DNA of 30,125 bases from a virus, in IMG/VR virus record IMGVR_UViG_3300044816_000092, positions 1 to 30,125 of that record. One strand, written 5' to 3'. Positions 673 through 7,763 of this stretch are shown here, in pieces. Made by a program: the position numbers and the translations under genes. Position 1 is the stretch's first letter. The number at the start of each line of letters is the position of its first letter. Below the pieces are notes generated by a model, which was not told the DNA's origin, searched no databases, and worked only from the letters and a program-made list of their open reading frames with translations.

Positions 673-887
673 GTTTTGTCCTATAAAGTTAAGTTTAATA
701 TAAAAATCATATTAAAATAATATGGGATTTTATTTGTATATTATTTAATAATTACAGTTGTTATATATTTGTTTTTTCATCCCATGAAAGAATGATAATA
801 TGCAAATTTATATTTGTCAACATCTTTTTGTAAAAAAACAAAAATATTTTGTAATCATTATTTTTTATCTATTTTTAATTTAAAAAA
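673..887. other. AT-rich intergenic region with a leftward promoter
   Basis: This 215-base stretch has no convincing gene on either strand. It contains the promoter at 792-820 and many A/T runs, and separates the repressor's 3' end from the next leftward gene. I see no strong terminator. Confidence 0.45.
792..820 (-). promoter_or_regulatory. Leftward sigma70 promoter for the 454-672 gene
   Basis: On the minus strand TTGACA (815-820) is a perfect -35 box. Exactly 17 bases separate it from TATCAT (792-797), which matches the -10 consensus at four or five positions. The spacer contains TTTGCATA, resembling half of the palindrome in the rightward early promoter at 1400-1415, so the same repressor could bind here. 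Confidence 0.65.
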
Positions 888-1220
888 TTACACTTTGTTT
901 ATTTCTTTTGAGGCTTCTCTCACAATATCTTTCCAGTTAGGGAACATCTTTTTCATTAAGTTTATATTAGTTTTTACATTGTCTTCAGATGAGGGAGGGG
1001 AGAAGTCTAACTCTCTCGGATGGCATCCCAGAATATCTGCAATGCTTACAATCTTACGAGGCTGTATACTATGTCCGCTTTCTATTCTATTTAAAGCAGA
1101 CGGCGACATATTTGCTTTATAAGCAAGCTCTCTTTGATTATATCCTAACCTCTGTCTAAGCATTTTTATTTTTTGTCCTGGAAATTTAAATTGTTCACTA
1201 CATAAGACTTTATCTTTCAT
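888..1220 (-). CDS. XRE-family helix-turn-helix repressor, probable CI analogue
   Basis: The 110-aa product has a classic XRE/Cro-CI helix-turn-helix domain at about residues 16-73, including the segments LRQRLGYNQRELA and MSPSALNRIESG. The remaining ~35 residues form a short tail with no peptidase-like domain, so it is much shorter than lambda CI and has no visible self-cleavage site. The ATG at 1220 follows CGGAG on the minus strand. It is divergent from a YdaS/Cro-like gene across a 249-base control region, the standard layout of a lysogeny switch. A role as maintenance repressor is inferred from fold and position. Induction would need an antirepressor or another route than RecA-stimulated cleavage. 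Confidence 0.85.
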   Translation of the reverse strand: MKDKVLCSEQFKFPGQKIKMLRQRLGYNQRELAYKANMSPSALNRIESGHSIQPRKIVSIADILGCHPRELDFSPPSSEDNVKTNINLMKKMFPNWKDIVREASKEINKV

Positions 1221-1469: not shown

Positions 1470-1853
1470 ATGTCGAATTTAAGTGTTAATGATTTTCCTG
1501 AATCAAAAAAACCTTTAGTTTCAGCGATTATAGAAGCTGGCGGAATAACGGCTTTTTCAAAGCTTATAGGGGTTTCTCATGCAGTTGTTAGCTCATGGAT
1601 TCATGTTTTAACAAAAGGAATCCCGGCAGAAAGATGTATAGAAATAGAAAATATAACGAAAGGAGAGATTAAAAGGCAAGACCTTAGGCCAGATGTTTTT
1701 TCTAGTTTTATCAGTAAAAAAGAATCAACTACTGAAGATAGAATAAAAGAAGCATCTAAAATCCTTAATGAAATATGTAAGGAAATTTATGTGGACAGGG
1801 GAAGAATAAATCTCAGAAAGAAGTCAAAAATAAATAATAAGAGTATGCCTTAA
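1470..1853 (+). CDS. YdaS/Cro-like transcriptional regulator
   Basis: The 127-aa product has an N-terminal helix-turn-helix of the YdaS/Cro type at about residues 16-75: AGGITAFSKLIGVSHAVVSSWI, then a KGIPAERCIEIE segment and LRPDVF. The family includes phage Cro-like repressors and the YdaS part of YdaST modules. The basic C-terminal ~45 residues are of unknown role. GAGG lies six bases before the ATG. It is the first gene of the rightward early operon, immediately behind the promoter at 1392-1420, and its stop overlaps the next start (TAATG). A Cro-like role is inferred from position and fold. Confidence 0.82.
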   Translation: MSNLSVNDFPESKKPLVSAIIEAGGITAFSKLIGVSHAVVSSWIHVLTKGIPAERCIEIENITKGEIKRQDLRPDVFSSFISKKESTTEDRIKEASKILNEICKEIYVDRGRINLRKKSKINNKSMP

Positions 1854-4975: not shown

Positions 4976-5184
4976 GGGAATTTACACCAATAAATGCGTT
5001 TAAGTTATCTAAACGTGGGAAAGATGTTTTAAAGGAATGCAAGGCTATTTTAAAGTGCAATGTAACAAAAGTTCATGTCAAAACATCCGATTATAGCGAA
5101 TTGCTTGCAAGCGTTTCCCCTGCTTCTCGTATATTTTATCAAGAAGCCATTCCGCTCGATGGAAAAATTGTGGTGAGGAAATGA
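4972..5184 (+). CDS. Hypothetical protein, 70 aa
   Basis: A small soluble protein of unrecognised family, basic at the N-terminal half (KLSKRGKDVLKECKAILKC). No motif of known function is seen. The GTG start is supported by GAGG eight bases upstream and by the four-base GTGA overlap with the interrupted gene before it. Its last bases carry the ribosome-binding site of the next gene. It belongs to the accessory stretch after the methyltransferases. Confidence 0.55.
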   Translation: MREFTPINAFKLSKRGKDVLKECKAILKCNVTKVHVKTSDYSELLASVSPASRIFYQEAIPLDGKIVVRK

Positions 5185-5186
5185 AT

Positions 5187-5369
5187 ATGAAAAAATTTAT
5201 TACTGTTAATGAACTTGTGGAAAAACTTAAAAAATATCCAGAATGCGGAGAATATTCTATAACAATAGAATATAACAATGGTAGTTCTGATCCGATAATG
5301 GATGTTACGGTTATTTTTAGCGATTACAATAAAGATGTTATTTTAAAAGTTAATGGATTATTAAAATAA
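5187..5369 (+). CDS. Small protein with TVNELVEKLKKYP motif, 60 aa
   Basis: The N-terminus FITVNELVEKLKKYPECGEYSI resembles a small phage protein pattern in which a T-V-x-E-L-x-x-x-L-x-x-x-P motif is followed by a short beta-rich segment. A second, more distant member is encoded at 6304-6465 (VRQLRFVLSQVPDDAELYV). Function is unknown. ATG 5187 is preferred over ATG 5181 because GAGGAA at 5175-5180 is six bases from the former and abuts the latter. Its TAA stop lies inside a 35-base sequence that recurs at 6632-6666. Confidence 0.6.
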   Translation: MKKFITVNELVEKLKKYPECGEYSITIEYNNGSSDPIMDVTVIFSDYNKDVILKVNGLLK

Positions 5370-5401
5370 GTGTTGACAACGTTACTAATAACGTTTATCA
5401 T
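5364..5401 (+). promoter_or_regulatory. Near-consensus promoter with palindromic operator, copy 1
   Basis: TTGACA (5373-5378) and TATCAT (5396-5401) are separated by exactly 17 bases. The 18-base perfect inverted repeat AACGTTACTAATAACGTT (5378-5395) fills the spacer. A protein bound there would exclude RNA polymerase. Bases 5364-5398 are identical to 6632-6666. It points to the membrane-protein gene at 5441. Confidence 0.85.
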
Positions 5402-5440
5402 GGTTTTACTGCGTTCCTTACAAATTTAGGAGATAGAAGA

Positions 5441-5764
5441 ATGGTTGAAAAATCGAATGAAGCGAATACGCTTTTAAAGATGGGTGTTTTTGGGATGGCG
5501 ATATTATCCGTAGGTACGTTGAGCGTAGGATTTACTCTTTGTGCTCTTGATTATATATCCTCTCAACACTTTTTAATCGGGATTGCGGCAGGCGTTGGAG
5601 CTGCTAGTACAGTTTTTGGAATCGGAGGGTTATTTATGCGTGATAGATTCTTTAAGCCTGTTATAGAAGATCATATTCGGGAAAAAGACCATTTGATTAA
5701 TTTGGTTACCGGAAAAATGGTAATTGAAAATTATAATTCGTCTGATTCTTTAAATTTAAATTGA
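5441..5764 (+). CDS. Membrane protein with two transmembrane segments, 107 aa
   Basis: Hydrophobic segments lie at about residues 13-34 and 42-65, separated by a short loop, and the charged C-terminal ~40 residues are probably cytoplasmic. The family is not recognised. A good AGGAGA site precedes the ATG. It is the first gene after the operator-controlled promoter at 5364-5401. The holin-like topology and position suggest membrane roles such as superinfection exclusion, but lysis proteins are already encoded at 26842-28113, so a holin role is less likely. Confidence 0.65.
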   Translation: MVEKSNEANTLLKMGVFGMAILSVGTLSVGFTLCALDYISSQHFLIGIAAGVGAASTVFGIGGLFMRDRFFKPVIEDHIREKDHLINLVTGKMVIENYNSSDSLNLN

Positions 5765-5777
5765 AAGAGGTTTAAAA

Positions 5778-6086
5778 ATGAATGAAGAAGAGATCAAAGA
5801 GATAAACAGAATTAAGCCAATGGCAAAGATTATGGCTAAACAATGGATATTTAATAATTTCAATAATATGTATAAACCAACAAACAATAAAACATATAAT
5901 GATAATTGCATAATTGCCTTAAAGGCTTTTCATAATCAATTTATCCACATGATTCCAAATTTGACTATTGCACAAATATATATGTTTAATTACACTACAA
6001 AAATGATGATAGATATCATAGATCGTCATTCTGAAAGAGTATCCAAATGTTCTCTTGCTGAAAAACAAAAATCTTGTGGAATTTAG
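5778..6086 (+). CDS. Hypothetical protein, 102 aa
   Basis: A mostly helical, Asn- and Lys-rich soluble protein of unrecognised family. It has no Cys cluster or membrane segment. GAGG eight to ten bases before the ATG supports the start. It follows the membrane-protein gene by 13 bases and so is probably co-transcribed from the promoter at 5364-5401. Confidence 0.6.
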   Translation: MNEEEIKEINRIKPMAKIMAKQWIFNNFNNMYKPTNNKTYNDNCIIALKAFHNQFIHMIPNLTIAQIYMFNYTTKMMIDIIDRHSERVSKCSLAEKQKSCGI

Positions 6087-6134
6087 GAATTGTTATGGAA
6101 TTTTATGAATTTACAGAAAGATCATAGGAATTTT

Positions 6135-6293
6135 ATGAGTTTAAAAATATCGGAAAAAAGAAAACAATCAAATAAACGTCAAGCTTTATTTAGGAAAAAA
6201 ATGATCGAAAAGGGGTTTTTCTTTTTTGCTCATTGGATTCCCGAATCGAAAAGAAAAGAAATTACAGAATTTGCCATTAAAATTTGTGAGTAA
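6135..6293 (+). CDS. Small basic protein, 52 aa, resembling MazE-like/RHH phage proteins
   Basis: The sequence RKKMIEKGFFFFAHWIPESKRKEITEFA follows the pattern of small phage and antitoxin-like proteins, in which a G-x-x-x-x-x-x-W-x-P strand is followed by a helix. Some of these have a ribbon-helix-helix fold, but no partner toxin is recognised here. I chose ATG 6135 because AGGAA precedes it at normal distance; in-frame starts upstream (TTG 6090, ATG 6105) are possible. A similar AGGAATTnTTATG sequence just upstream would start only a 10-codon frame. Confidence 0.5.
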   Translation: MSLKISEKRKQSNKRQALFRKKMIEKGFFFFAHWIPESKRKEITEFAIKICE

Positions 6294-6303
6294 GGATTTT
6301 GTT

Positions 6304-6465
6304 ATGAATGTACGACAATTGCGTTTTGTATTATCTCAAGTTCCTGATGATGCAGAATTATATGTTTCTTTGGGTGACCCAATCCCTGGATATGTGTGGG
6401 CTGCCTATAAATGCGAATATGATCTTCAAACAAATAGATTTTATGTTGATTATATGGAGAGATAA
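6304..6465 (+). CDS. Small protein related to the 5187-5369 product, 53 aa
   Basis: The product begins VRQLRFVLSQVPDDAELYVSLGDP, the same short helix, Pro and strand pattern as the 5187-5369 gene. It ends in an aromatic segment. AAGGA seven bases before ATG 6304 decides the start; a longer frame from 6226 would overlap the preceding gene by 68 bases. Function unknown. Confidence 0.6.
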   Translation: MNVRQLRFVLSQVPDDAELYVSLGDPIPGYVWAAYKCEYDLQTNRFYVDYMER

Positions 6466-6466
6466 A

Positions 6467-6637
6467 GTGCAAAAATATTTTCTTACATTAGCTATGTTTA
6501 TTTTCTCTCTTTATTCTGTATTTTCATTAAATGTTCATCCGTGGTTTAATTTTTTTTCTGTTCTTCTTTCAGGAATATGTTTATTTTTAGCAGGAATGGC
6601 TTTTCAATCAGAATTTGTTAAAAATAATTTTAAATAA
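6467..6637 (+). CDS. Small two-TM membrane protein, 56 aa
   Basis: From GTG 6467 the protein is almost wholly hydrophobic, with membrane segments at about residues 4-21 and 27-46 and a short charged tail. GGAG lies eight bases before the GTG, inside the preceding gene's last codons, so the two genes are tightly linked. A frame from ATG 6308 is a chance extension across the preceding gene. It ends just before the second palindrome promoter. Such peptides in phages can alter the membrane against superinfection, but nothing here proves this. Confidence 0.6.
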   Translation: MQKYFLTLAMFIFSLYSVFSLNVHPWFNFFSVLLSGICLFLAGMAFQSEFVKNNFK

Positions 6638-6669
6638 GTGTTGACAACGTTACTAATAACGTTTATTAT
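6632..6669 (+). promoter_or_regulatory. Near-consensus promoter with palindromic operator, copy 2
   Basis: TTGACA (6641-6646), a 17-base spacer and TATTAT (6664-6669) carry the same AACGTTACTAATAACGTT palindrome (6646-6663) as copy 1. The 35 identical bases include the upstream gene's TAA stop. It points to the gene at 6713. Confidence 0.85.
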
Positions 6670-6712
6670 CTCTTTACTGAGTTGTTAAACGATAGTGAAA
6701 GGAGATGTTGAC

Positions 6713-6958
6713 ATGCTGAATATATCTTTAAATCAAGTTGAAAAATTAAGAGCATTTTTTAGCCCGCTGGAAAATGAAGTTTTAAATAAAGATCAAGTCA
6801 AAATGTTAAGTGAAAAAATAAACAAGTTTTCACATAATTCATTAACAATTTTGGGTTATGCAAAAATACCTCATGTTAGTGAGGCAGCGGTAGATATTTT
6901 GTTTGAGAGCAAAAATATATCTAACGCAGATTATATTAATATTTTAGAAAGTCTTTAA
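6713..6958 (+). CDS. Hypothetical protein, 81 aa
   Basis: A helical soluble protein with no recognised family. ATG 6713 has GGAG at 6701-6704 at good distance; a GTG at 6695 is the alternative and would add six residues. It is the only gene directly behind the second palindrome promoter before a 113-base AT-rich gap. It could be a separately regulated accessory protein. No membrane or metal-binding motif is seen. Confidence 0.55.
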   Translation: MLNISLNQVEKLRAFFSPLENEVLNKDQVKMLSEKINKFSHNSLTILGYAKIPHVSEAAVDILFESKNISNADYINILESL

Positions 6959-7071
6959 TGAAATTTTTTCTTAAATTATTTTAAAGTAATAAAAATAAAT
7001 TGCATTAAGTAAATTTTTTTGGCATAGTTCTTTAATTGGTAATTTATTTTCACAATGTGAGTAATATTTAA

Positions 7072-7287
7072 ATGGCTAAATTAAAAACTTCAACAAGAAA
7101 TAAATTGAAAAAATCTACTTTCGGTTTACCGTCTGAGAGAAAATATCCTATGCCTGATAAATCTCATGCGGCTAATGCTAAGGCTCGCGCTACTCAAATG
7201 GTTAAAAAAGGAAAATTAACAAAATCTCAAGAAAAACGTATTGATGCAAAAGCAAATAAAGTTTTAGGAAAAGGTAAAAATAAATGA
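7072..7287 (+). CDS. Small basic protein of the phage KSTFGLP...YPMPDKSHA type, 71 aa
   Basis: The protein is strongly basic and has the pattern KLKKSTFGLPSERKYPMPDKSHAANAKARA. I recognise this as a recurring small phage protein, usually placed close to structural genes and of unproven role. About one third of residues are Lys or Arg, and nucleic-acid binding is plausible. The stop overlaps the next start (ATGA). The 113-base region before it holds no gene and only weak promoter-like hexamers. Confidence 0.7.
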   Translation: MAKLKTSTRNKLKKSTFGLPSERKYPMPDKSHAANAKARATQMVKKGKLTKSQEKRIDAKANKVLGKGKNK

Positions 7288-7493
7288 AACAATTGTACAT
7301 GCGAGTAATTTTGTCAAAAACACCGGAAGGATTAAACGAAGAGGAAGGAGATTCGGTTAACATCTCTTTTGTAAGAGATTTTGAAGAAAACGAGTCAAGC
7401 GAAAATATTTCTGTGGCTTTTGCAAGAGATATTGTTAATGCCCCATGTATTTTGTTGGGCGATTTATTAAATTTATCGGAGAAATTAACATGA
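7284..7493 (+). CDS. Hypothetical acidic protein, 69 aa
   Basis: An acidic small protein with two similar segments, SVNISFVRDFEENE and NISVAFARDIVNAP, suggesting an internal duplication. It is not recognised. It overlaps its neighbours by four bases on each side (ATGA), so it is firmly within a three-gene operon with a basic protein before and a His/Lys-rich peptide after. The opposite charges might allow the products to interact; that is inference. Confidence 0.6.
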   Translation: MKQLYMRVILSKTPEGLNEEEGDSVNISFVRDFEENESSENISVAFARDIVNAPCILLGDLLNLSEKLT

Positions 7494-7624
7494 AACACAA
7501 AGCTGAACATAAAAAAGAATCTCATAAAGAAGAACATAAAGAGCATTCCCCTGCTCATCACATGAAATTAGCCCATCATCACATGAAAGAAGCTGTAAAA
7601 AAGGCCAAGCACAAAAAGAAATAA
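7490..7624 (+). CDS. Histidine/lysine-rich peptide, 44 aa
   Basis: Eleven of 44 residues are His and fourteen are Lys. HHM and HHHM clusters sit in the middle and KKAKHKKK lies at the end. The ATG overlaps the preceding stop (ATGA), and the gene ends 20 bases before a strong terminator, both consistent with a real last gene of the operon. Metal or nucleic-acid binding is plausible from composition only. Confidence 0.6.
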   Translation: MKHKAEHKKESHKEEHKEHSPAHHMKLAHHHMKEAVKKAKHKKK

Positions 7625-7643
7625 TTATTCTTTTTGATCAAAT

Positions 7644-7669
7644 AAACCCCCTTCATTGGGGGTTTTTTC
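7644..7669 (+). terminator. Intrinsic terminator ending the accessory operon
   Basis: CCCCC (7647-7651) and GGGGG (7658-7662) form a stem extended by AAA/TTT pairs, around a TTCATT loop, followed by a run of T. It separates the early/accessory genes from the late block. Confidence 0.88.
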
Positions 7670-7698
7670 GTTTATTTACCTTAAAATGTCCGTTTTTA

Positions 7699-7763
7699 TT
7701 GACTGAATGCCTATTTTATTGATATAAAGTATATGAATTATTTTTTTTTTCATATAAATCAAT
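7699..7763 (+). promoter_or_regulatory. Probable late-region promoter and long inverted repeat
   Basis: TTGACT (7699-7704) and TATAAA (7723-7728) are 18 bases apart. An inverted repeat follows: ATTGAT...TATATGAA (7718-7737) against TTCATATA...ATCAAT (7749-7763), with ten T in the loop. The complement of its right arm reads ATTGATTTATATG followed by an A-run, matching sequences upstream of the scaffold gene. It lies just after the terminator and before the packaging genes. Confidence 0.55.

Follow-up and report, generated by a model that had tools for sequence, protein, structure and literature searches.

In the immI region of phage P22, the repressor Arc, a protein of roughly 53 amino acids, acts at Pant, where it occupies the spacer between the -35 and -10 elements of its own operon's promoter. 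Arc is a ribbon-helix-helix protein, with its elements in the order strand-helix-helix. Anti-CRISPR (acr-aca) cassettes are repressed by Aca proteins, and their promoters carry an inverted repeat, mostly a single one, within the core promoter (PMC9410906). A further type of repeated phage operator is the mycobacteriophage stoperator; stoperators are asymmetric, occur in large numbers, and are sites at which the immunity repressor binds (PMC9283540). The DNA analysed here, which we call the window, is an IMG/VR virus record of 30,125 bases, with terminase, portal and capsid genes on its right side and a pair of C1-like and YdaS-like regulators on its left. It contains two promoters, W1 and W2, that share traits with these systems; we do not claim membership in either the acr-aca or the P22 Arc/Pant class.

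A 35-base block occurs in identical form at 5364-5398 (W1) and 6632-6666 (W2) on the plus strand, 1,268 bases apart and including at each site the TAA stop codon of the upstream gene, in agreement with a preliminary description of this DNA; the repeat family extends to 55 bases at 89% identity. The hexamers and the 17-bp spacing named in that description are likewise present at both sites. The W1 promoter (5373-5401, plus strand) has TTGACA at 5373-5378 and TATCAT at 5396-5401, and the W2 promoter (6641-6669, plus strand) has TTGACA at 6641-6646 and TATTAT at 6664-6669. Both are near-consensus sigma-70 promoters, matching at 11/12 positions each, a likeness to acr-aca promoters, and both rank among the top three sigma-70 matches within the window's first 9 kb. 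Across the whole window, five promoters that match at 11/12 positions or better and have a 17-bp spacer were observed, versus 0.67 expected.

The spacer of each promoter is filled by the same 18-mer, AACGTTACTAATAACGTT (5378-5395 in W1, 6646-6663 in W2), whose first base is the last base of the -35 and whose last base directly precedes the -10, as we checked at both sites. It had been called a perfect palindrome; AACGTTACTAATAACGTT differs from its own reverse complement at two positions and thus forms 8/9 pairs, with arms AACGTTA/TAACGTT flanking CTAA. The 18-mer occurs in the window only in these two spacers. An exact search of IMG/VR returned seven further copies, all with different flanks and without promoter hexamers; these look like chance, several of them lying in repetitive coding-like sequence. 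Over 40 loci covering the window and its TerL relatives, dyads of at least 8/9 pairs were found four times at the W1/W2 register versus once across 11 other offsets combined, and none of the equally good promoters in 150 Markov-simulated windows carried one at this register. A chance origin of the promoter-dyad arrangement is excluded. Like acr-aca promoters, these promoters hold an inverted repeat within the core promoter, here a dyad that fills the spacer and is conserved in the phages L010, L011 and L098; like lambdoid C1/Cro operators, it is a two-fold element of about 17-18 bp overlapping the promoter spacer.

We found two close relatives of the window by TerL search, L010 (86%) and L011 (82%). 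Identity to the window is mostly 57-87% among their main structural proteins, and their early genes are far more divergent. Each relative carries one promoter of the W1/W2 design, at the corresponding gene-order position and with an unchanged register, with the dyads ACCGTTGAATTAAACGGT (L010) and ACCGTTAGCGCTAACGGT (L011). The exact 18-mer is not conserved. Pair 2/17, A-T in the window, is C-G in both relatives, both sides having changed, and the arms AACGTT..AACGTT of the window read ACCGTT..AACGGT in L010 and L011; the L011 dyad is perfect (9/9 pairs). Absence of the repeat from close relatives with the same genes had been named as a result that would speak against the twin promoters; these relatives keep the position, register, symmetry and CGTT/AACG arms. 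When the same number of substitutions was introduced at random into the window site, such dyads were kept with a frequency of 6e-4 for L010 and 5e-5 for L011, and when substitutions were restricted to the positions that did change, at 0.12 and 0.03, respectively. Taken alone, the paired arm changes are suggestive; with the fixed register they make a strong case. The operator-promoter pair is real and conserved. The preliminary description had read the site as tandem AACGTT boxes, but the relatives' ACCGTT/AACGGT arms are not self-complementary, so one two-fold operator with the half-site MCGTTA (M = A or C) fits better. There are two full dyad sites in the window and one in each relative's record, all of them at cassette promoters. 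Repetition of a regulatory site outside the immunity region recalls the stoperators (PMC9283540), whereas here the sites are one or two in number, symmetric and always at a promoter. A W1/W2-type promoter was not found in the more distant TerL relatives L012-L048; a search of INPHARED with window positions 5000-7700 gave no DNA relative, and portal and TerL queries against genome_contigs found no prophage.

Each promoter heads a cassette of small genes, as first proposed: W1 the genes of 5441-6634 and W2 those from 6713 onward, all listed here lying on the plus strand. The first cassette opens with a hydrophobic, probably membrane-bound protein of 107 aa (5441-5764) that has a homolog in L010 (6096-6392). 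It is followed by a 102-aa protein with no function assigned (5778-6086), a 52-aa candidate autorepressor (6135-6293, hereafter the 6135 protein), a 53-aa protein (6304-6465) whose ortholog (60%) is encoded directly upstream of the L011 operator, and a hydrophobic 56-aa protein (6467-6637), the stop codon of which lies within the repeat block. The second cassette begins with an 81-aa protein (6713-6958) for which no relatives were found, and stands just before the conserved late genes. Because the ortholog of the 6304 gene precedes the L011 operator and the W2 leader is identical to the L011 promoter leader at 33/43 positions, it is W2 that is syntenic, W1 being the extra copy. The 6135 gene sits between the two, and therefore upstream of the syntenic promoter W2, and it is exactly upstream of this displaced gene that the window has its extra copy, W1. 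No cassette protein matched a family of known function in Pfam, PHROG or PADLOC, and profile searches recognised no DNA-binding domain, and no helix-turn-helix, in any of them. A further likeness to acr-aca is a small-gene cassette in which a downstream gene encodes a small candidate repressor. The locus differs from those systems in that Aca proteins have helix-turn-helix domains and none was recognised in the window cassette proteins, in that matching to Pfam, PHROG and PADLOC identified no anti-CRISPR gene in the window cassettes, and in having two promoters for one candidate repressor.

Of special interest is the 6135 family, which has members in the window, L010, L011 and L098. In all four phages, three of them close kin, a 6135-type gene lies about 730 to 1,760 bases downstream of the operator-promoter on the same strand, and the genes between them differ from phage to phage. 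The L010 and L011 proteins are 55% identical and the window protein is about 33% identical to either; L010 and L011 share the same operator arms, and the window has different ones. Among the three proteins compared in the three clade phages (6135, C1-like and YdaS-like), only the divergence of 6135 follows the operator arms, a match that, with three phages, is a hint only. Family members share the signature G-x6-W[VI]P, and the profile of phrog_11804, which has no function assigned, gave weak matches in 4/4 phages (4e-4, 0.004, 1e-5 and 1e-4 per record). Pfam and profile searches recognised no DNA-binding domain in the family, fold searches gave no match, and for a ribbon-helix-helix fold no Pfam match was obtained. 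Fold models of its members are either helix-helix, at low confidence, or helix-strand-strand-helix. In the literature searched, we found no description of DNA binding by this family, and tblastn of its members in phages and plasmids gave no significant match. A MazE-like antitoxin (PF11455) was considered as a relative and rejected: at E up to 10 its profile matched in none of the four phages. A weak match came from a Vibrio filamentous phage: its 61-aa protein (L126:2495-2680, plus strand) contains G-x6-WVP and, scored alone, reaches 26 bits against the profile, and no operator was recognised by eye upstream of its gene. In another phage, L016, one ORF weakly resembles 6135, and no clear dyad precedes it.

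The fourth phage, L098, was found through the operator. We scanned IMG/VR with the DNA pattern TTGACAMCGTTANNNNTAACGK alone and obtained 10 matches outside the clade, among which that in L098 is the only one not inside an ORF. This site reads TTGACA-CCGTTACCGGTAACGTGC-AATAAT (6008-5979, minus strand), with an 18-base spacer and a mismatch at the outermost pairs of the operator. The genes downstream on the same strand are small, and the fourth (5147-4917), about 830 bases from the operator, belongs to the 6135 family. Its 76-aa product has two CxxC motifs in the amino-terminal portion and a domain sharing 42% identity with the family member of L011, and is predicted as helix-strand-strand-helix. 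A profile made from the three clade members matched it at E 5e-12, with no other such match in 1.0 Mb of 105 other loci. It is the only L098 protein that matches the clade at E 1e-3, and no TerL match was found in L098. The operator-gene link is thus present in two otherwise unrelated lineages; its probability as a coincidence is about 1% or less, a rough and post hoc bound that assumes such genes to occur about once per megabase at most, a distance of about 1 kb downstream, and ten matches. A profile-guided scan of IMG/VR found only L010, L011 and L098, and a broader promoter-dyad search of the same database found dyads of at least 8/9 only in the two clade phages. A search for a half-site plus -10 returned non-clade matches without a proper -35 and without the 6135 family. 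In an unrelated viral contig, we observed AACGTTAAGTTTAACGTT-TATTAT (L107:6400-6423, minus strand) before a gene with a sigma-factor-like C-terminal part; this site lacks a good -35, and no gene of the 6135 family is close by.

The spacer dyads thus appear from their sequence to behave as operators in two promoters heading small-gene cassettes, in support of the earlier proposal. We lean towards autorepressed accessory-gene promoters with a two-fold MCGTTA operator, for which the 52-aa 6135 product would be the most likely repressor. The circuit we infer would involve DNA binding and repression by this protein, early timing, and an accessory role of the cassettes. On phage entry the strong promoter would fire and give an initial burst from the cassette; the 6135 repressor would accumulate and a dimer would occupy the -35/-10 spacer, excluding RNA polymerase because the operator fills that spacer. 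Since W1 would drive the 6135 gene, the repressor made from this cassette would shut down its own cassette, and the second small-gene cassette, driven by W2, would be controlled in trans by the same repressor. The 6135 protein would probably act as a switch that limits itself, familiar in its general type but not in its regulator, and its role as autorepressor is plausible. In repressor size, in acting at the promoter of its own operon and in spacer occupancy, the role proposed for 6135 resembles that of P22 Arc at Pant. The differences from P22 are that the L098 member has a predicted helix-strand-strand-helix and no fold match, and that no antirepressor or Mnt-like gene was found here.

Among the binders suggested in the preliminary description, the 6135 protein is now the best supported, and the two others, the C1-like HTH_3 regulator (888-1220, minus strand) and the YdaS/Cro-like regulator (1470-1853, plus strand), are unlikely, because their divergence mismatches that of the operator and because the immunity region has other repeats. 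Both are DNA-binding regulators by profile and are found in all three clade phages, and if either bound the dyads the cassettes would belong to the immunity switch. The C1-YdaS intergenic regions, however, contain no copy of the dyad, as had been stated for the immunity region, and a different repeat, TTGTAAGCATWTG, is common to these regions in the window and L011. Moreover, the C1-like proteins of L010 and L011 are the least alike (36%) despite the same arms, and those of the window and L011 the most alike (54%) despite different arms, with 38% between the window and L010; the YdaS-like proteins are about 36% identical with that of the window and show no match between L010 and L011. We regard this reading as doubtful. 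Immunity regions without copies of the site, and regulators that do not co-vary with it, also set this locus apart from lambdoid C1/Cro systems.

Some phages use LexA to tie genes to host physiology. A host regulator could similarly bind the operator here, with the 6135 family as common cargo; the single or paired sites per phage are what is expected of a borrowed host regulator, and the 6135 protein has no recognised DNA-binding domain. This would leave unexplained why L098, found by its operator alone, has a 6135-family gene downstream and why the arm sequence follows 6135 similarity, and we consider it unlikely, though the least so of these alternatives. Slightly less probable even than binding by the immunity regulators is that of another phage protein, from the cassettes or from a part of the genome beyond the 30-kb record. 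The record is indeed shorter than those of the relatives (36 and 38 kb) and most cassette proteins have no assigned function, but none has a recognised DNA-binding domain and L098 has only its 6135-family protein in common with the clade. Very improbable, finally, are dyads without a regulatory binder, as hairpin-forming or merely duplicated promoter sequence: 7-base arms and a 4-base loop could fold on a single strand, and the near-identity of W1 and W2 would fit a duplication, yet ordinary duplex sigma-70 hexamers flank every copy, the L011 dyad has 9/9 pairs and no loop, the arms differ between phages in a paired manner, and the site recurs beside a 6135-type gene in the unrelated L098.

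Autorepression by the 6135 protein would be of a circuit type already known; what appears to be new is the family of the regulator, together with its pairing to the MCGTTA operator. A further, tentative extension that we consider rather improbable is that the family is an unrecognised DNA-binding family (predicted helix-hairpin-helix), Aca-like in autorepressing accessory cassettes, here by way of MCGTTA dyads, but without a helix-turn-helix, and that its neighbours are unrecognised anti-defence genes. Autorepressed cassettes are where phages keep fast-acting accessory genes, and a new family of repressors whose operator is readable would offer a handle on cassettes that lack an Aca or helix-turn-helix gene. 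It would also tie a short protein family without assigned function to a specific DNA site. If W2 obeys the 6135 protein, a second cassette would have been joined to the circuit by copying only about 50 bases.

We made several additional observations on the window and its relatives. In the C1-YdaS intergenic region of the window, TTGTAAGCATTTG occurs twice, 23 bases apart (1288-1325), and TTGTAAGCATATG is present once in that of L011; these are likely immunity operators. A 9-bp dyad, AATGTTGCA-TTTT-TGCAACATT, lies at 72-93, outside the annotated leftward genes, and a similar sequence, TTGCATAAATGCAA, is present in the immunity region near 1400. The third 11/12 promoter of the window (792-820, minus strand, TTGACA-17-TATCAT) is directed left to the 672-454 and 383-180 genes, and a comparable promoter, likewise leftward, is present in L011 at 932. 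Inside the 1853-2659 gene, positions 2205-2292 contain 11-base repeats in tandem (ATGCGAACGCA) and then an AGAGA-rich run, a tract that could be variable by slippage. Both close relatives encode CsrA (PF02599, E 4e-22 and 1e-20; L092:775-978, minus strand, and L094:2259-2627, plus strand) next to an AAA_24 ATPase gene, in L094 also with a DUF669 gene; the window has no CsrA match, and the region around the relatives' CsrA is absent from it. A tRNA-Pro(TGG) lies just upstream of the terminase genes in L010 (8871-8947) and L011 (8989-9065), with none in the window. The record of L011 also encodes a full-length RtcB RNA ligase (L094:4180-5388, plus strand; PF01139, E 4e-122).
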